Source of the DNA: an uncultured Alistipes sp.
Lineage (GTDB): Bacteria > Bacteroidota > Bacteroidia > Bacteroidales > Rikenellaceae
Direction of reading: 5' to 3'
DNA length: 35,916 nt
Assembly: GCA_947178025.1 (NCBI GenBank)
Contig: CAMWWU010000003.1
Coordinates: 1-35,916 of the forward strand
A model generated the notes under the pieces. That model was not told the origin of the DNA. It was given only the letters and a program-made list of their open reading frames with translations, and made no database searches. Shown piece after piece: positions 8,918 through 32,972 of this stretch (positions are counted from its first letter, which is position 1; every line of letters starts with the position of its first letter). The position numbers and the translations under genes are program-made.

Positions 8918-8945
8918 CGGGGGTCCTCCGATCGGAGGACCCCCG
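8918..8945. terminator. Perfect 28-bp inverted repeat between convergent genes
   Basis: A 28-bp perfect palindrome with centre 8931/8932, located 5 bases after the nfo stop and 19 bases after the end of the convergent nan operon. It would form a strong GC hairpin in transcripts from either side, but neither side has a long T tract (TTT on plus), so it may work as a weak bidirectional terminator or as 3'-end protection. Confidence 0.65.
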
Positions 8946-8964: not shown

Positions 8965-9729
8965 CTACTCCTGCGTATAGATCGGCTCGGTCGCGAACTG
9001 ACGGAAAGCCGCCGCGAGCCGATCCGTCACCGCCTCGGCAAAACGGGCTCCCTTTTCGGCCGTCGCGCCGCGCGGATCGCCGATTCCGGTATCCGAGGTG
9101 ACTTTCGACCAGTCGCGCGGAAGCCAGAGCGTCTTTTCATTCAGGCACGCCATGGCGAAGGGCCGCGCACGCCCCTCCCCCGCCGCCGGCAGATCCACCA
9201 ACTCGGGCCGATAGTGCAGCATGACGGAGGTTTCGAGTTCGTCGGCATGTTCGCCCGGAGCATCGAAAAATCCCTCGCGGGGCACCATCGCATACCACTC
9301 GCAGCAGGCGATCGCGAAATCGGGATACGCCACGGCCAGATCGCGCACCATGTTCCGGAACGAATTTCCACCGTGCCCGTTGACGATCGCCAGTCGCCGC
9401 ATTCCCTGATGATGGAGCGACGCCACGACGTCGGTCAGCATGGCGCACTGGGTGCGATAGCTCGCATGAATACAGAACGGCTGCTCCCGCTGCCCGGGAT
9501 TCTGCGACCCGAACGTCACGGGCGGCAGCACCATACAGCGCACCGGGGCTGCCTTGCATGCCGCCTCCACGCTCACCGCCTGCGCGAGAATGGCATCGGT
9601 CAGGTAGGGCAGATGACGGTTGTGCGGCTCGGTCGCGCCCCAGGGCAGCACCGCCAGATCGTAATGTACGGCCGACGTATCGGCCAGCGTCGACACGCTC
9701 AGATCGACTCCTTTCATCATTCGGTTCAT
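8965..9729 (-). CDS. Creatininase-family amidohydrolase in the nan operon
   Basis: A 254-aa member of the creatininase (creatinine amidohydrolase) superfamily, metal-dependent hydrolases of cyclic or linear amides that include creatininase, FAPy deformylases and MftE. With the start at 9729 the metal-binding residues are Glu34, His36 and Asp45 (GATEPHNRHLPYLTD), matching the canonical creatininase numbering, then His119 in NGHGGN and the EHADELETS segment (residues 160-168). The ATG at 9729 lies one base after the MFS transporter stop; another in-frame ATG at 9744 would overlap the transporter. It is the last gene of the sialic acid operon, so a role in processing a sialic-acid-related amide is suggested by position only. 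Creatinine itself is an unlikely substrate. Substrate unknown. Confidence 0.85.
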   Translation of the reverse strand: MNRMMKGVDLSVSTLADTSAVHYDLAVLPWGATEPHNRHLPYLTDAILAQAVSVEAACKAAPVRCMVLPPVTFGSQNPGQREQPFCIHASYRTQCAMLTDVVASLHHQGMRRLAIVNGHGGNSFRNMVRDLAVAYPDFAIACCEWYAMVPREGFFDAPGEHADELETSVMLHYRPELVDLPAAGEGRARPFAMACLNEKTLWLPRDWSKVTSDTGIGDPRGATAEKGARFAEAVTDRLAAAFRQFATEPIYTQE

Positions 9730-9730
9730 T

Positions 9731-10966
9731 TTACTGCATATCATCGGTTTTCGGCCGCAGCACGATCAGCTGCATGGCCAGGGCCAGCCCCACGACGGCC
9801 GCCATCAGGGCGAATCCGAGTCCCAGATCGCCCGCCTCGGCCCACCGGCCGAGCACCTTGGTGATGACGGCTCCGGCGAAGACGCCCGTCATGTTCATCA
9901 CCCCGTAAGCCGACGCACGCTGCCGCGCCGGCACGAACTGGCAGAGAATCGGCATGTTGTTGGCATCGAACATGCCGTATCCTACGCCGAAGAAGAGCCC
10001 TGCGGAGACGGCGGCGAACATGCCGCCGCCCATGCCCAGCAGCACCAGGGCCGGAATCATCGCACCCAACCCGATCGCGCTCGTATAGATCCGCCCGCGC
10101 AGGTTGCGCCGCACCCACCGGTCCGAGATCGGACCGCCGATCATCACGCCGACGAACGACGACAGGGCGATCGTAACGGTCGAAACGGGTCCGGCCTGCG
10201 ACATCGGAATCCCGAGGCTCTCGGCGAAGAGGGTCGGCAGCCAGTTCTTGGTCGCCCACCCCGGCAGCGACGACGAGGCGAAGAAGAAGAGGATGGTCCA
10301 GAACGCGACGTTGGAGAAGATCAGCGAGAAGCTCCTCCACACGGGTTCCCCGACGGGTTTCGACTTTTCGCGCACGACGGGCTCCCGGCGTTTTTCATGC
10401 AGGAACAGCACCAGCACCCCGGCATAAAGGATGCCGGCCAGTCCGAACCAGTGGAACGCCGTCTGCCACGAGAAGGCCGCAGCCACCGTGGCCCCGAATC
10501 CGCCGACCGCCTGCCCGAGATAGAGACCCGTCATGTGGATGCCGATGGCCAGGCTGCGCGCCGAACCGGTGAAATAGTCGGCGATGAGCGACAACGCCGC
10601 CGGAATGTAGAGCGCCTCGCTCACCCCCATCAGCGCACGCAGCCAGTAGATCTGCGCAAACGACGAGGAGTAGCCCATCAACAGCGTCACGGCGGACCAG
10701 ACGCCGAGCGACAGCACGATCAGCCATTTGCGGCTGACCCGATCGGCGACGGCCCCCGCCACGGGACTCATGAATCCGTAGATCCAGAGAAAAATCGCCA
10801 TCAGCCGGCCGAAATTGACGGCCGACTCCAGTTCGGCGATGTCGATCTGCATCGCTTCGCGCATGGTCGACAGCATCTGCCGATCCATGTAGTTCAGCAG
10901 CGCCACCACCCACAGCAGCCCCACGACGACCCAGGGATAAATCTTCGAGTTTTTCATTGTCTCCAT
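9731..10966 (-). CDS. nanT: MFS sialic acid transporter
   Basis: A 411-aa, 12-span major facilitator of the anion:cation symporter type, expected to bring N-acetylneuraminate across the inner membrane. The first spans carry LNYMDRQMLS and the MFS loop motif DRVSRKWLIV (GxxxDRxxRR-like), with a second copy-like motif GGPISDRWVRR after span 7. Bacteroides and Tannerella nan operons contain an MFS NanT of this kind rather than a TRAP or SSS carrier. It follows the kelch gene by nine bases and is directly followed by the creatininase-family gene. METMKNSK offers two starts (10966 or 10957). Substrate assignment rests on operon context; the family itself also carries hexuronates. Confidence 0.85.
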   Translation of the reverse strand: METMKNSKIYPWVVVGLLWVVALLNYMDRQMLSTMREAMQIDIAELESAVNFGRLMAIFLWIYGFMSPVAGAVADRVSRKWLIVLSLGVWSAVTLLMGYSSSFAQIYWLRALMGVSEALYIPAALSLIADYFTGSARSLAIGIHMTGLYLGQAVGGFGATVAAAFSWQTAFHWFGLAGILYAGVLVLFLHEKRREPVVREKSKPVGEPVWRSFSLIFSNVAFWTILFFFASSSLPGWATKNWLPTLFAESLGIPMSQAGPVSTVTIALSSFVGVMIGGPISDRWVRRNLRGRIYTSAIGLGAMIPALVLLGMGGGMFAAVSAGLFFGVGYGMFDANNMPILCQFVPARQRASAYGVMNMTGVFAGAVITKVLGRWAEAGDLGLGFALMAAVVGLALAMQLIVLRPKTDDMQ

Positions 10967-10975
10967 TCCGTATTG

Positions 10976-12157
10976 TCATTCGAATTTCAGAAACCACACA
11001 TCGGACGTCCGGATCCCGGGGCGGGTTTCGCCGCCGGCCAGCAGCAGCCCCTCTTCCGTCGCCACGAGCGCTGCGCCGGCACGCGCCGAACGCTCCGACT
11101 CGCCGATCCCGCTCCAACGCTCCGTCCGGGGGTCGAAGCGCCACACCGACCGGCGGAAACGATAGGCCGCGGCAGGCCGCGAGAGATACTCCCGCTGCTG
11201 CGACGCATCGCACCGCAACCCTCCGGTGAAGATCTCCCGGTCGACGCCGCCCGCAACGTACAACGTCCCGTCGGCCGACATCGCCGCCGCCGTTCCGGTC
11301 ATCGTTCCGCCGTCGGGCAATCCTTCGATGCGTTCCCAGCGTCCCGTCGCCAGGTCGCAGCGATATCCGTAATCGGCCGCCGTGCGCCGTTCGGGATCGA
11401 ATCCGCCCCAGACGTACAGCCTCCCCTCGCAAACCGCTGCCACGGGCTGCACGAACGGTTCGGGCATCTCGGCCACGACCCTCCAGGAGCGATCGCCGCG
11501 CCCGGTATCGCAGGCCAGCACAGCCCGCGAGGGCTTCCCGTCCGCCAGACCGCCCGCCAGATAGAGCACGCCGCCGGCCATCGCCGCCGCCCCCTGCTCG
11601 ACGGCGAACGGCAGATCCGCCGATCGACGGACCGTCACCCGACCGCCGTGCGGGCGCAACGAATAGACGCTCCGCAACGGCCCCGAGGCATTGGCCCCGC
11701 CGGCGACGATCAACTCCTCAGGCAGCGAGTAGCTCGCGCCGTAGGCCGCCGGTTCGGGCAGGCTGCCGGCACGGATCCACCCGGCGTGCCGCCCGCCGTC
11801 ATCGCGCAAGAGATGAATCACGTCGTAGAAGCGTTTCGCACCGCCCTCGGCCGCCGGGGTCTCCGGGAAATTGGCACCGCCCGCCACGATCGTCGACGCG
11901 CCGACGCGCCCCGCATAGAGTGCGGAGACCCCCTGCGCGAAATCCGCCCCGGAGAGCGCCAGACCGGGCATCGGCTGCCAGGAGACCGCAGCCGGCTCAT
12001 CCGCCGAGCGGAGCGCCGAAGAGCCCTCCGGCACGCGCTCTTCGCGGAGCTTGTCCGCCGTTCCGCCACCCCGTTCGTCCCCGAACGCCGGCAGCAGCGG
12101 AAGCGTTCCCGTCAGCAACAGCGCGGCGACACCCCGGCGCAGCATGCGGGTCCTCAT
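10976..12157 (-). CDS. nanM: Kelch-repeat N-acetylneuraminate epimerase (mutarotase)
   Basis: A 393-aa exported beta-propeller protein. A signal peptide (about residues 1-25, MRTRMLRRGVAALLLTGTLP) is followed by six kelch-like blades with repeating GG...Y/W patterns (TIVAGGANFPETP, ELIVAGGANASG, VLYLAGGLADGK, RLYVWGGFDPERR, TLYVAGGVDREIF, GLLLAGGETRPG). Periplasmic NanM speeds interconversion of alpha- and beta-N-acetylneuraminate released by sialidases. The start codon overlaps the stop of the epimerase gene (ATGA, 12154-12157), so translation is coupled. The mutarotase call rests on kelch architecture plus nan operon position. Confidence 0.85.
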   Translation of the reverse strand: MRTRMLRRGVAALLLTGTLPLLPAFGDERGGGTADKLREERVPEGSSALRSADEPAAVSWQPMPGLALSGADFAQGVSALYAGRVGASTIVAGGANFPETPAAEGGAKRFYDVIHLLRDDGGRHAGWIRAGSLPEPAAYGASYSLPEELIVAGGANASGPLRSVYSLRPHGGRVTVRRSADLPFAVEQGAAAMAGGVLYLAGGLADGKPSRAVLACDTGRGDRSWRVVAEMPEPFVQPVAAVCEGRLYVWGGFDPERRTAADYGYRCDLATGRWERIEGLPDGGTMTGTAAAMSADGTLYVAGGVDREIFTGGLRCDASQQREYLSRPAAAYRFRRSVWRFDPRTERWSGIGESERSARAGAALVATEEGLLLAGGETRPGIRTSDVWFLKFE

Positions 12158-13341
12158 CGGCTCTCGCCCAATATTTCGTCGCACAGCTGCGCCGCACGGA
12201 TCATCATGCGCGGAACATGGAACGGCCCCTTGAAGAGATTGCCCTTGGCGGGCTGGGCCACGGTTCCGTCCCGATGCAGATAGCCGTACCACTCGCCGTA
12301 CTCGGGGTCGGGGAAGACCCGGAAAGCGTAGTCGTGCGCCAGACGGTGCATCTCCAGATAGCGCTCCTCGCCCGTGGCCCGGTAGGCATACAGGGCGGCC
12401 AGGATCGTTTCGCACTGCGGCCACCAGAACTTCATGTCCTGCGAGTAGTCCTGCGGCGGGAAATTCCGGCAGTCGCGGAAATTGATCATGCCTCCGCAGG
12501 GCTCGTCCCAGCCCCACTTCCAGGCCCAGTCGATGATCGTCGTACCCATCTCGACCAGCTGCGCATCCCCGCCGCGGAACCGCGCCGCATCGAGCAGGAA
12601 CCATCCGGTCTCCATGCAGTGGCCGGGGTTGATCGTGCGGCCGGCCATCGTGTCGAGGAACTCGCCGTGCGGCCCGACGGTTTCGAGCACCGTTTCGAAC
12701 TCGGGGTGCATGAAGCAGCTGCGCAGCGTCTCGACGGAGCGGTCGATTTCGGCGTCGAGCGCCGGATCGTCGCTCACCTGCCGGATCACCAGCGCGACGT
12801 TGATGAGCATCATCGTGATGGAGTGGCCGATCGAAGGCACGGCCGTCTTCGCCGGCAGAAACCCCGGCTCGGAGAGCATGCGCAGCGTGCGGCGGAAGAT
12901 CTCCAGCGCCTTGGCGGCATAGGCGTCGTCGCCCGTGGCCGCCGCATATTCGGCCATCGCCACGGCGGCGAAGCACTCCGAGAAGACGTAGCGGCGCTTC
13001 TGCACCGGCGCCCCCTCGGCCGTCACCGTGAAGAACATGTGTCCATCCGTATCGATGCAGTGCCGCTCGATGAAGTCGAGCGCGCTCTTCGCCGCAGCCA
13101 GCCACTCCGCCCGCCCGCCGACGGCACGCGACGCCGCCGCGCACACGTAGGCGAAACGGCCCTGAAACCACACCGATTTGGTCGTATCCATCAACGTGCC
13201 GTCGCGATCGACGCACGTATAGACGCCGCCGTTCACGCGATCCACGCCGTGCCGCATCCAGAAAGGCAGGATGTCGCCGACCAGATCGGCCCGATAACGG
13301 GCGCGGCACGCTTCGAGATAGGATTTCTGTCGAGTTGTCAT
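12154..13341 (-). CDS. nanE: N-acylglucosamine/N-acetylmannosamine 2-epimerase (AGE type)
   Basis: A 395-aa cytoplasmic (alpha/alpha)6-barrel epimerase that converts N-acetylmannosamine from the lyase step to N-acetylglucosamine. The AGE/renin-binding-protein signatures are present: KSVWFQGRFAYVCA near residue 55, RRYVFSECFAAVAMAEYAA, NPGHCMETGWFLLDAA, DMKFWWPQCETILAA and the C-terminal KGPFHVPRMM, including the conserved histidines of the active site. Length matches the family (about 390-420 aa). This is the eukaryotic-like epimerase used in the Bacteroides nan operon, unrelated to enterobacterial NanE, so the symbol follows Bacteroides use. It begins 22 bases after nanA and overlaps nanM by four bases. 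Confidence 0.92.
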   Translation of the reverse strand: MTTRQKSYLEACRARYRADLVGDILPFWMRHGVDRVNGGVYTCVDRDGTLMDTTKSVWFQGRFAYVCAAASRAVGGRAEWLAAAKSALDFIERHCIDTDGHMFFTVTAEGAPVQKRRYVFSECFAAVAMAEYAAATGDDAYAAKALEIFRRTLRMLSEPGFLPAKTAVPSIGHSITMMLINVALVIRQVSDDPALDAEIDRSVETLRSCFMHPEFETVLETVGPHGEFLDTMAGRTINPGHCMETGWFLLDAARFRGGDAQLVEMGTTIIDWAWKWGWDEPCGGMINFRDCRNFPPQDYSQDMKFWWPQCETILAALYAYRATGEERYLEMHRLAHDYAFRVFPDPEYGEWYGYLHRDGTVAQPAKGNLFKGPFHVPRMMIRAAQLCDEILGESR

Positions 13342-13363: not shown

Positions 13364-14281
13364 TCAGAATCGATTGCAGCGTTCGAAGAAGCCGATCCGC
13401 TCCAGTTCGCGCTTCATCGCGGCCTCCTCCTCGTCGGTCATGTTGCGGAAAGGCAGGCGGTTGCGTCCCAGGTCGAGCCCGATGAGCTTCATGATGCGCT
13501 TGCCGCCGACGATGTTGCCGCGATAGTTGCAGATGACGTTGATCACCTCCTGCGAGAAGTTCTGCTTTTCGCGGGCCGTCTCCAGATCCCCGCGCTGCCA
13601 GGCTTCGATGATCCCCACCAGCTCGCGGCCGTTGTAGTTCGTCGTGCCGCCGATGCCGCCCTCGGCACCGCCCATCGCCAGCGAGGGGAGGATCGTCTCG
13701 TCCTGGCCGTGGAGCATGTCGTACTTGCCGCCTCCGTAGAGCCGGCACTGGTTGTACTCGTAGATGCTCTCGAAGGTGTATTTGATCCCCGCGAAGTTGT
13801 CGATGCGTCCGTCCACGGCCCGCAGCAGGTCGACCATCGGCAGGTAGGCCCCGTTGAAAGCCGGAATATGGTAGTAGTAGAACGGCAGCGACGGCGCCGC
13901 ACGGCAGATCGTCTCGCAGTAGGCCGCCAGCTCCTCGACACGTCCGATCTTCGGGAACGGCGGCGCCATGGCGCCGATTCCCCAGGCGCCGATTTCGGCA
14001 GCGTGCTCCGCCAGACGGGCGCTCGACTTCAGGCAGCAGCTGCCCACGTGCACGATCACCTTGAATCCGGCGGGAGCCGCCTCGACCCAGCGCTCGGCCA
14101 GCAACATGCGCTCCTCGTCGGTGAGCATGTAGCCCTCGCCCGACGAACCGTTGATGAATACGCCCTTCAGACCGTTTTTGGCGAGCATCGCCGCATACGC
14201 GGCAATAGGCTCCGGGTTCACCTCTCCGGCCGCATCGAACGGAGTAAAGGGAGCATCGATCAATCCCTTGATTTTTTCCAT
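13364..14281 (-). CDS. nanA: N-acetylneuraminate lyase
   Basis: Class I aldolase of the DHDPS family that splits N-acetylneuraminate into pyruvate and N-acetylmannosamine, first cytoplasmic step of sialic acid catabolism. The 305-aa product shows the pyruvate-binding FINGSSGEGYMLT motif near residue 42, the catalytic Tyr137 in FYYYHIPAFNG and the Schiff-base Lys167 in AGIKYTFES, positions close to E. coli NanA (Tyr137, Lys165). The YHIP and IKYT sequences favour NanA over dihydrodipicolinate synthase. First gene of the five-gene nan operon, with a promoter 41-73 bases upstream. In Bacteroides this gene is also called nanL. Confidence 0.95.
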   Translation of the reverse strand: MEKIKGLIDAPFTPFDAAGEVNPEPIAAYAAMLAKNGLKGVFINGSSGEGYMLTDEERMLLAERWVEAAPAGFKVIVHVGSCCLKSSARLAEHAAEIGAWGIGAMAPPFPKIGRVEELAAYCETICRAAPSLPFYYYHIPAFNGAYLPMVDLLRAVDGRIDNFAGIKYTFESIYEYNQCRLYGGGKYDMLHGQDETILPSLAMGGAEGGIGGTTNYNGRELVGIIEAWQRGDLETAREKQNFSQEVINVICNYRGNIVGGKRIMKLIGLDLGRNRLPFRNMTDEEEAAMKRELERIGFFERCNRF

Positions 14282-14321: not shown

Positions 14322-14354
14322 CGAAAGTAAATACATTTCGCATATATTCCAAAA
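14322..14354 (-). promoter_or_regulatory. Promoter of the nan operon
   Basis: On the minus strand TTTTG (14354 to 14350), 20 bases, then TACTTTCG (14329 to 14322), close to the Bacteroidetes consensus. It would start transcription about 35 bases before the nanA ATG. The surrounding region 14285-14375 is strongly AT-rich against a GC-rich background. Confidence 0.7.
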
Positions 14355-14516: not shown

Positions 14517-14551
14517 AAAAAAAAGCGGGGACGCGCCCTGCGCATCCCCGC
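14517..14551 (-). terminator. Rho-independent terminator of the ROK regulator gene
   Basis: On the minus strand GCGGGGA (14551 to 14545) pairs with TCCCCGC (14531 to 14525) with further GC pairing inside, followed by eight T (14524 to 14517). It ends the ROK transcript before the nan promoter, so the regulator and nan operon are separate units. Confidence 0.9.
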
Positions 14552-14571: not shown

Positions 14572-15783
14572 CTACATCGTCCGGCCGAAAGCCCGTCGCC
14601 GCGCCAGCAGGCAGGCGCCGACCACGCCGGCCCGATCGCGCAGCGTCGAGAAGAGAATCCGCGTGTCGCCGCTCACCAGATTGAGCGAATATTTCCGGAC
14701 GGCGGTTTGGATCGGCTGCATCAGGTAGTCGCCGGCGCCGGCGAGCGTTCCGCCGATCACGACCTGTTCGGGATTGAAGATATTGATCAGATTGGCGAGC
14801 TGCTTGCCCATCTCCCGGCCGACGCCCTCGATCAGTTCGATGCAGAGCATGTCCTCGCGTCCCAACGCGCCGACGATATCGTACAGCGTCACCTCGCGCC
14901 CCTCCAGCACGTCGCACGAAAGCACCGACCCCTCGCCCGCCGCGACATGTTGCAGCAGCTTGCGGTGCAGAGCCGCTCCGGAGGCCTCGGTCTCCAGACA
15001 CCCCTTCTTGCCGCAATGGCACATGATCTCGTTGTTGTAGACGCTCATGTGGCCGAACTCGCCCGCATACCCCGACTTGCCGCAGTAGAGCTCTCCGTCG
15101 ATGATCAGCCCGATGCCGATGCCCCAGCCGGCATTGACGAAGATCATGTTCCGCCCCTCGGGCCGCTTCCGGCCGCAATATTCGCCGTAGGTCATGGCAC
15201 GCGTATCGTTGTCGATCGAAACGCGGCAGCCGATCCGCGCGGAGATCACCTCCGCCAGCGGACGCTCCTCGAAGTTGAAGATGCTGTAGCTGCTCCCCGT
15301 GTAGGGATTCACCCGACCCGAGATGTTGACATTGACATGCAGGATCTTCCGCGCATCGACCCCGCAGCCGGCGATGAATTCGCCGATGCGGCGGCACACC
15401 TCGTCGAGTTTTTCCGGCGTATTCTCGAAGCGGAACGAAGCGTCCTCCGAGACCTCGACCAGCTCGCCCGCGAAATCCATCAGTCCGATATGGAACGAGA
15501 ACCACTTGATGTCGACCCCGACGAAATAGCAGGCCTCAGCATGCAGCCCGTAGGCATTGGGGTGACGCCCTTCGCGCGTCTCCACCTTACCGAAGTCGCG
15601 CAGCAGCCCCGTCCCGCACATCTCAACGACGTACTTGGTAACGGTCGGCACGCTGTATTTCAACTCCTTGGCCACATCGGGAATCGGCAGATTCCCGCGC
15701 CGCAGCAGACAATCGACGATCTGCATCCGGATGGCGGAACTGCGCGACCCGGTCTCCGGCTCCTTAAAAAATGCCTCCAACAT
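14572..15783 (-). CDS. ROK-family transcriptional regulator, probable nan regulator
   Basis: A 403-aa NagC/Mlc-type protein. Residues about 12-70 form a winged helix-turn-helix (IRMQIVDCLLRRGNLPIPDVAKEL, then SVPTVTKYVVEM), followed by a ROK sugar-binding/kinase-fold domain: VGVDIKWFSFHIGLMD, VSIDNDTRAM, FVNAGWGIGIGL, and the zinc motif GHMSVYNNEIMCHCGKKGCLET. ROK regulators usually repress amino-sugar catabolic genes and release DNA on binding a sugar or sugar phosphate. It sits directly upstream of the nan operon on the same strand but with its own terminator, so control of nanA onward by an N-acetylmannosamine or GlcNAc derivative is the natural guess. The VGVDIKW loop lacks the DxGxT of active kinases, as expected for a regulator. 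Confidence 0.85.
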   Translation of the reverse strand: MLEAFFKEPETGSRSSAIRMQIVDCLLRRGNLPIPDVAKELKYSVPTVTKYVVEMCGTGLLRDFGKVETREGRHPNAYGLHAEACYFVGVDIKWFSFHIGLMDFAGELVEVSEDASFRFENTPEKLDEVCRRIGEFIAGCGVDARKILHVNVNISGRVNPYTGSSYSIFNFEERPLAEVISARIGCRVSIDNDTRAMTYGEYCGRKRPEGRNMIFVNAGWGIGIGLIIDGELYCGKSGYAGEFGHMSVYNNEIMCHCGKKGCLETEASGAALHRKLLQHVAAGEGSVLSCDVLEGREVTLYDIVGALGREDMLCIELIEGVGREMGKQLANLINIFNPEQVVIGGTLAGAGDYLMQPIQTAVRKYSLNLVSGDTRILFSTLRDRAGVVGACLLARRRAFGRTM

Positions 15784-31967: not shown

Positions 31968-32972
31968 CTATTTGCACTCCTGCTGCCAGATCAGGGCCGA
32001 GGCGCCGAGGATGGCGGCGTTCTTGCCCTGGATGCCGCTCGGGAGCAGCTTCACCTTGTTCTTGAACACGAAGCACATGTTCTCCTCCATGTACCACTGC
32101 GTCGGCTCGAAGATCAGCTTGCCGGCCTTGGAGAGTCCGCCGAAGAGGAAGATCGCCTCGGGCGAGGTCACCGTCACCACGTCGGCCAGCGCCCGGCCCA
32201 GCATCTCGCCCGTGAAGCGGAACGTTTCGAGCGCCACGGGGTCGCCCTGCTCGGCAGCGGCCGAGATCATCGAGGCGTCGAAATCGTCGTAGGCGATGCC
32301 GCGCAGCTTGCTCGGCGCCGACATGCGGGCCATCATCTCGAACGCCGTGCGCTTGATGCCCGTCGCCGAAACGTAGGTCTCCAGACAGCCGCGGCGGCCG
32401 CAGCCGCACTCGCGGCCGTTGCGCTCCACGATCACGTGGCCGAACTCGCCGGCGAAACCGTCGTGTCCGTAGATCATCTCGCCGTTGGCCACGAATCCCG
32501 AGCCGAGCCCCGTGCCGAGCGTAATCATGATGAAATCGCGCATGCCCCGGGCATTTCCGTAGATCATCTCGCCGATCGTCGCGGCATTGGCATCGTTGGT
32601 GATGAGGGTCTTGACTCCGCCGAAACGCTGCGAGATATCCGCCGCCAGCCGGAAGATCCGGCGCGACGGGTCGGTGTCGGTCTCGTCCTCGCGGAAGCGC
32701 CAGAGGTTGGCGGGCGTCTCGACCGTACCTTTATGATAATTGGCGTTGGGAGCGCCGATACCGATACCGGTGAGTTCGTAGTCGAACGACAGGCTGTCGG
32801 CGAGCGCACGCATCGCCTGGCAGAGATCGTCGACATAAGCCGGATAGTCGTCCAGATAAGGGTATTTCTTGGTCGAGATGACCGATTCGGCATAGAGATC
32901 GCCGTTTTCGTCGACCAGACCGAACGCGGTGTTTATTCCGCCGATATCCACGCCGATAGCAAGTTTTTTCAT
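31968..32972 (-). CDS. ROK-family glucokinase-like sugar kinase
   Basis: A 334-aa cytoplasmic sugar kinase, probably phosphorylating glucose or an N-acetylhexosamine with ATP. The phosphate-binding start AIGVDIGGINTAFGLVD, the catalytic-Asp segment ITNDANAATIGE, MITLGTGLGSGFVANGE, the sugar-binding GEFGHV and the zinc motif ECGCGRRGCLET are all present, and there is no helix-turn-helix, so it is an enzyme rather than a regulator. ATG 32972 begins MKKLAIGVDIGG; upstream sequence is promoter. The motif set cannot separate glucokinase from N-acetylmannosamine or fructose kinases; ManNAc kinase is not required if the AGE epimerase acts first. Confidence 0.88.
   Translation of the reverse strand: MKKLAIGVDIGGINTAFGLVDENGDLYAESVISTKKYPYLDDYPAYVDDLCQAMRALADSLSFDYELTGIGIGAPNANYHKGTVETPANLWRFREDETDTDPSRRIFRLAADISQRFGGVKTLITNDANAATIGEMIYGNARGMRDFIMITLGTGLGSGFVANGEMIYGHDGFAGEFGHVIVERNGRECGCGRRGCLETYVSATGIKRTAFEMMARMSAPSKLRGIAYDDFDASMISAAAEQGDPVALETFRFTGEMLGRALADVVTVTSPEAIFLFGGLSKAGKLIFEPTQWYMEENMCFVFKNKVKLLPSGIQGKNAAILGASALIWQQECK

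Follow-up and report, generated by a model that had tools for sequence, protein, structure and literature searches.

A creatininase-family gene at the end of a sialic acid operon in an uncultured Alistipes: a candidate accessory hydrolase of amino-sugar catabolism

The gene and its operon

What might a creatininase-family enzyme contribute to an operon for sialic acid breakdown? The window considered here (the whole stretch of DNA analyzed, 35,916 nt from an uncultured Alistipes sp.) contains five minus-strand genes in the order nanA-AGE-nanM-MFS-creatininase, the last of which (8965..9729, 254 aa) encodes a creatininase-family amide hydrolase, as judged by its PF02633 match, its resemblance to the solved structure 3LUB and its metal-binding residues. 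Its reading frame is intact in the window sequence, from an ATG at 9729 to a TAG at 8965–8967, and a single base (9730) separates it from the end of the MFS gene at 9731; the position and the 1-base gap to the transporter are those given in the first-pass annotation of this DNA. Starting at an in-frame ATG farther upstream (9744) would make the gene run into that for the MFS protein, and in an alignment the relatives favor 9729 or a start a few codons downstream of it. In the literature searched, which had most subscription papers outside its reach, no link between creatininases and sialic acid was found; three papers mention both, and from their titles and abstracts appear to be unrelated. 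Metal-dependent bile salt hydrolases, described in a preprint, were set aside as members of a different family (PF07969). If the link is functional, gut Bacteroidota use sialic acid by way of an enzymatic step that the textbook route lacks. This would matter for the range of host sialic acids within their reach (Neu5Ac, Neu5Gc, modified forms), and would provide a function for the solved Bacteroides fragilis structure 3LUB and for a subfamily found across the Bacteroidota.

The operon starts with nanA/nanL, for an N-acetylneuraminate lyase (13364..14281; PF00701, E 1.5e-45; solved N-acetylneuraminate lyases, E 7.5e-56), followed by AGE, for an N-acylglucosamine 2-epimerase converting ManNAc to GlcNAc (12154..13341; PF07221, E 5e-46; 8BRY, E 4.8e-120), and a gene for a NanM-like Kelch mutarotase (10976..12157; PF24996 NANM, E 1e-40), whose start codon is uncertain (12034, 12145, or 12157). 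The Kelch protein resembles E. coli YjhT/NanM, with 2UVK YjhT as its best solved match. None of these three proteins reached an NCBIfam equivalog cut-off in the profile search. The fourth gene (9731..10966) had been described as that of a probable sialic acid transporter; to this the profile search adds membership in the MFS family (PF07690, E 2e-48), while the sialate role remains an argument from context. MFS genes 64–69% identical to it adjoin the creatininase-family gene in other nan operons.

The start of nanA, at 14281, lies downstream of a gene for a ROK-family regulator (14572..15783, also on the minus strand; PF00480, E 3.6e-52), relatives of which (39–55% identity) adjoin nanA in loci L125, L127, L129, L132, L133, L135, and L136. 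The regulator gene is followed by a terminator-like site with a 12-pair stem and T8 (14525..14551, minus strand), and nanA is preceded by a promoter-like sequence of Bacteroidetes type, TTTG-20 nt-TACTTTCG (14322..14353, minus strand), judged by eye against the generally known consensus for that group. At the other end, the creatininase-family gene closes the operon after nanA, AGE, nanM, and the transporter gene, as first annotated; the next gene is convergent. A perfect 26-base palindrome read from the sequence between the two (8919..8944) is possibly a shared terminator, a T run being absent from its operon side.

Family, fold, and active site

Creatininase-family enzymes hydrolyze amides at a two-metal site. 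The assignment of the window protein to this family, made at first reading, agrees with a PF02633 match of 189.1 bits against a gathering score of 31.3 (E 1.1e-55). The metal ligands then named (Glu34, His36, Asp45, and His119) are found in the protein and do not vary among 26 aligned sequences; the window protein also has Glu166. Its AlphaFold model (pLDDT 93.4) matches 3LUB at TM 0.96, with 55% sequence identity, and creatininase at TM about 0.77, consistent with a creatininase fold. 3LUB (YP_211512.1, from B. fragilis NCTC 9343) is a structural-genomics entry for a putative creatinine amidohydrolase and is itself uncharacterized; on the tree it groups with two copies from nan operons (L062 and L068).

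Likeness to the characterized members is more limited. Pseudomonas creatininase (1J2T/1Q3K/3A6 series) has the same fold and shares Glu34, His36, Asp45, and the His of the NGH motif, but is about 23% identical, and at the position aligned with its Glu122 the window protein has a glycine (Gly121), as do all 26 aligned sequences. The mycofactocin peptidase MftE also belongs to PF02633, with an alignment spanning residues 20–247, but no mycofactocin context was seen. IolN, a 3-dehydro-scyllo-inosose hydrolase, shares PF02633 and has a role in sugar catabolism. With the NCBIfam models the window protein scores below the curated cut-off for creatininase (TIGR04448, 91.8 bits vs. 235), MftE (TIGR03964, 84.6 vs. 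172), and IolN (NF041098, 53.5 vs. 245), and membership in all three was dropped. The first-pass annotation had suggested phylogeny to separate such genes from creatininase, ArfB, and MftE; by these cut-offs the window protein lies outside the creatininase, MftE, and IolN equivalogs. Residues N77, Q80, W202, R205, W207, and D213 are invariant in the alignment of close-clade and wider-clade relatives alike (the clades are defined below), which suggests a pocket shared by the two clades and particular to this subfamily. The window protein belongs to a known family, within a distinct and uncharacterized subfamily.

Distribution and gene neighborhoods

Among 393 Bacteroidales genomes, close-clade genes (about 50% identity or more and E <1e-64, a line drawn after the hits were seen) were found in 20, counting a partial match in G011 and leaving out one at 45% identity in G176. 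A close nanA (>65% identity) was found in 22, and both genes together in 13, against 1.1 expected. Counted by taxonomic family, the overlap is nine, from 10 families with the gene and 12 with nanA, of a total of about 119 derived from genome handle numbers. For 268 genomes of the window's own taxonomic family the figures are seven with the gene, 20 with close nanA, and five with both. These statistics ignore ancestry, in both genome sets, and part of the co-occurrence may reflect a common gut-glycan lifestyle and shared descent. Nor is the gene present in every nan-carrying genome, being missing from nine of the 22 with close nanA. G105 carries close nanA, but in the 39 genomes of its genus the gene was not found at E 1e-40. 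In one family of five genomes, nanA adjoins the gene in each of the three genomes that carry it, and the other two are without close nanA.

Within the window's genus, 11 genomes have close nanA and two of these have the gene. It is in the operon only in the window genome; in the other, G560, it stands alone, away from the nan operon, and the remaining nine do not have it. The recurrence in nan operons that the first-pass annotation proposed to survey is found beyond this strain and in several families, but within the genus it comes down to one operon. The same annotation had raised the possibility of an association limited to this strain; apart from the window, close-clade genes lie within 10 kb of nanA in L047, L052, L058, L062, and L068. 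More distant relatives, the wider clade (clade 2, about 44% identity), were found in 26 genomes of a sample of 143 other Bacteroidota, where they share no neighbor and have no nan context. A plasmid search was uninformative, with relatives all at <60% identity and mostly from Rhizobium.

The nan neighborhoods are not alike in detail. L089, a clade 2 copy, adjoins genes for MFS, NanM, NanA, a SASA esterase, and a GH20-like protein. Two more loci have partial nan neighborhoods: in L055 the close-clade gene is beside NanM and two SASA-domain esterases, and in L050 the order is MFS-YhcH-creatininase-NagB/PIG-L. As the neighbors vary in arrangement (MFS, SSF-NanM fusion, YhcH, SASA), this is not one frozen operon. 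On trees made without the outgroup rows L037 and L040, the linkage label (nine nan-linked copies vs. the rest) changes seven times, at least four of them forced by well-supported branches. A separate "no nanA" label, where given to L043–L046, L048, and L049, covers a single contig of each and not its genome. Shuffled labels change 8.4 times on average; being close to this mean, the observed value indicates that linkage is scattered over the tree and not confined to one clade.

Other contexts recur as well. Seven close-clade copies (L043–L046, L049, L064, and L066) share a cluster with the gene of a SIS-domain protein (NF002805, sugar isomerase domain). Genes for a ROK kinase and an MFS protein lie upstream wherever the contig extends far enough; most of these clusters include SusCD, and some have GH20/GH9 downstream. 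In three loci the gene comes after YhcH, close to an NlpC/P60 or enolase-superfamily gene; YhcH adjoins the creatininase-family gene in L050, L056, and L063. Altogether, many close-clade copies are solitary or in clusters other than nan operons. Amino-sugar genes are found in non-nan contexts too (ROK kinase, SIS sugar-isomerase-like protein, GH20). The gene is real and intact, and repeatedly though not obligately nan-linked; the linkage itself is recurrent and looks real.

Some unusual arrangements were noted in these neighborhoods. In the nan operon of L058 a NanM-like Kelch domain is fused to a sodium:solute symporter (L058:2605-5073), and Kelch-symporter-like matches occur near nanA in L131 and L135–L137. 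In that of L047, GDSL, SASA, and NanM domains are combined in one protein of 1053 residues (L047:6788-9949). Genome G308 has two close-clade copies in different contexts (contigs C2 and C6, corresponding to L059 and L066).

Possible roles

The first-pass annotation held that known Neu5Ac breakdown needs no such enzyme, and the gene content of the window genome bears this out. NagA is present over its curated cut-off, on a small contig of the draft assembly; a NagB/PIG-L fusion and a second NagB are encoded; a ROK kinase gene is in the window itself (31968-32972); and YhcH is represented by two fragments only (G000:C140:29-298 and C65:12338-12490), perhaps split by an assembly break. Since the known route is complete in this genome, replacement of either NagA or YhcH is poorly supported. 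A substitute for NagA would deacetylate GlcNAc-6-phosphate, between the epimerase/kinase and NagB. In keeping with this, NagA was detected in two of 13 close-nanA genomes with the gene vs. five of nine without it (Fisher p 0.07), although the absences are soft because no more than four candidates were scored in each genome, and in L050 the gene directly precedes that for NagB fused to a PIG-L de-N-acetylase domain (L050:10488-12437). The window genome has its own NagA, however, and the NagB/PIG-L fusion, with its de-N-acetylase domain, was matched in all 40 of the Bacteroidales genomes tested, making this substitution improbable. That the protein stands in for the Neu5Ac anomerase YhcH is harder still to credit: in the nan operons of L132 and L133 YhcH does follow the MFS gene, in the slot occupied by the window gene, but YhcH (PF04074) accompanies the gene in nearly every genome, adjoining it in the three loci given above, and on this distribution the idea was dropped.

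The reading preferred here is that the protein is an accessory amide or ring hydrolase of sialic acid and amino-sugar catabolism, with a probability of roughly 60%. It would be a soluble, metal-dependent hydrolase of creatininase fold, its amide chemistry suggested by its family and its probable cytosolic location by the lack of a signal peptide apparent by eye, and it would act as an accessory enzyme of amino-sugar catabolism repeatedly recruited into sialic acid operons. More specifically, and only tentatively, it may be an N-deacylase of an amino sugar derived from sialic acid breakdown. Its substrate is a guess; it could hydrolyze the N-acyl amide of ManNAc or GlcNAc, of a phosphate of either, or of a variant with an N-glycolyl or another N-acyl group. 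N-deacylation is favored because N-acyl amino sugars are the common theme of the contexts. Because relatives also occur next to SIS-protein genes, in YhcH/cell-wall settings, and on their own, the substrate is not necessarily a sialic acid, and an N-acyl amino sugar fits more of these contexts than sialic acid does. A family precedent for hydrolysis of an exocyclic N-acyl group is BrbF, a bacterial riboflavin formamidase first annotated as a creatinine amidohydrolase, which acts on an N-formyl group, removing it from a ribosylamino-pyrimidine (PMC9478397). By analogy with that deformylation, the products would be a short acid and a free amine. It is conceivable, if somewhat doubtful, that a distinct creatininase subfamily provides the Bacteroidales with an unrecognized step in sialic acid or N-acyl amino-sugar catabolism, such as taking an N-glycolyl group, or one other than acetyl, off mannosamine or glucosamine derivatives, or rescuing an intermediate that has cyclized. 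Against N-deacylation, the known route has no step in need of the enzyme, nine of 22 close-nanA genomes and the whole of G105's genus do without the gene, operon linkage in the window's genus is limited to the window with the G560 copy standing alone, and about a fifth of the Bacteroidota sample has wider relatives outside any nan context.

The main rival to N-deacylation is a ring-opening metabolite repair, in which a lactam or lactone arising from sialic acid, a different amino sugar, or some related metabolite would be opened for re-entry into the pathway. Creatininase opens a cyclic amide, and the window model is creatininase-like (TM about 0.77); if such a repair role is non-essential, it would also explain the patchy presence in nan operons and the wide, solitary clade 2. 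The glycine found in all 26 sequences in place of creatininase Glu122 argues the other way, and we know of no cyclic metabolite of the sialic acid route that needs an enzyme, so that ring opening appears rather unlikely. Much the same can be said, with slightly less in its favor, of the idea that the enzyme serves Bacteroidota in general, has no relation to sialic acid, and is present in nan operons by chance or hitch-hiking. The spread of clade 2 without a common neighbor, the many solitary or otherwise placed close-clade copies, and the rarity of linkage in the window's genus are all as expected for such an enzyme. The excess of the overlap with nanA (13 vs. 1.1) is not, nor is the agreement of nine of 10 taxonomic families, nor are the four or more changes of linkage on the tree with differing nan arrangements. 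A riboflavin formamidase of BrbF/ArfB type is very improbable. BrbF is annotated to the creatininase family, hydrolyzes an N-acyl amide, and has wide homologues (PMC9478397), but its riboflavin role is in alphaproteobacteria, and its likeness to the window protein is one of family annotation and presumed chemistry. No riboflavin genes were recognized in the neighborhoods read, presence of the gene is patchy, and the ArfB model is not among the NCBIfam matches of the window protein at E 0.001.

A few wider-clade copies have distinctive neighbors of their own. In L209 (8936-11324) the creatininase-family gene and one for an Asparaginase_2 (PF01112) protein share 8 bases, and in L212 and L219 relatives of the latter gene adjoin the creatininase-family gene on the opposite strand. 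In L077 and L086 it is found beside radical-SAM-like and asparagine-synthase-like genes and one for a weakly PIG-L-like protein of 780 residues.
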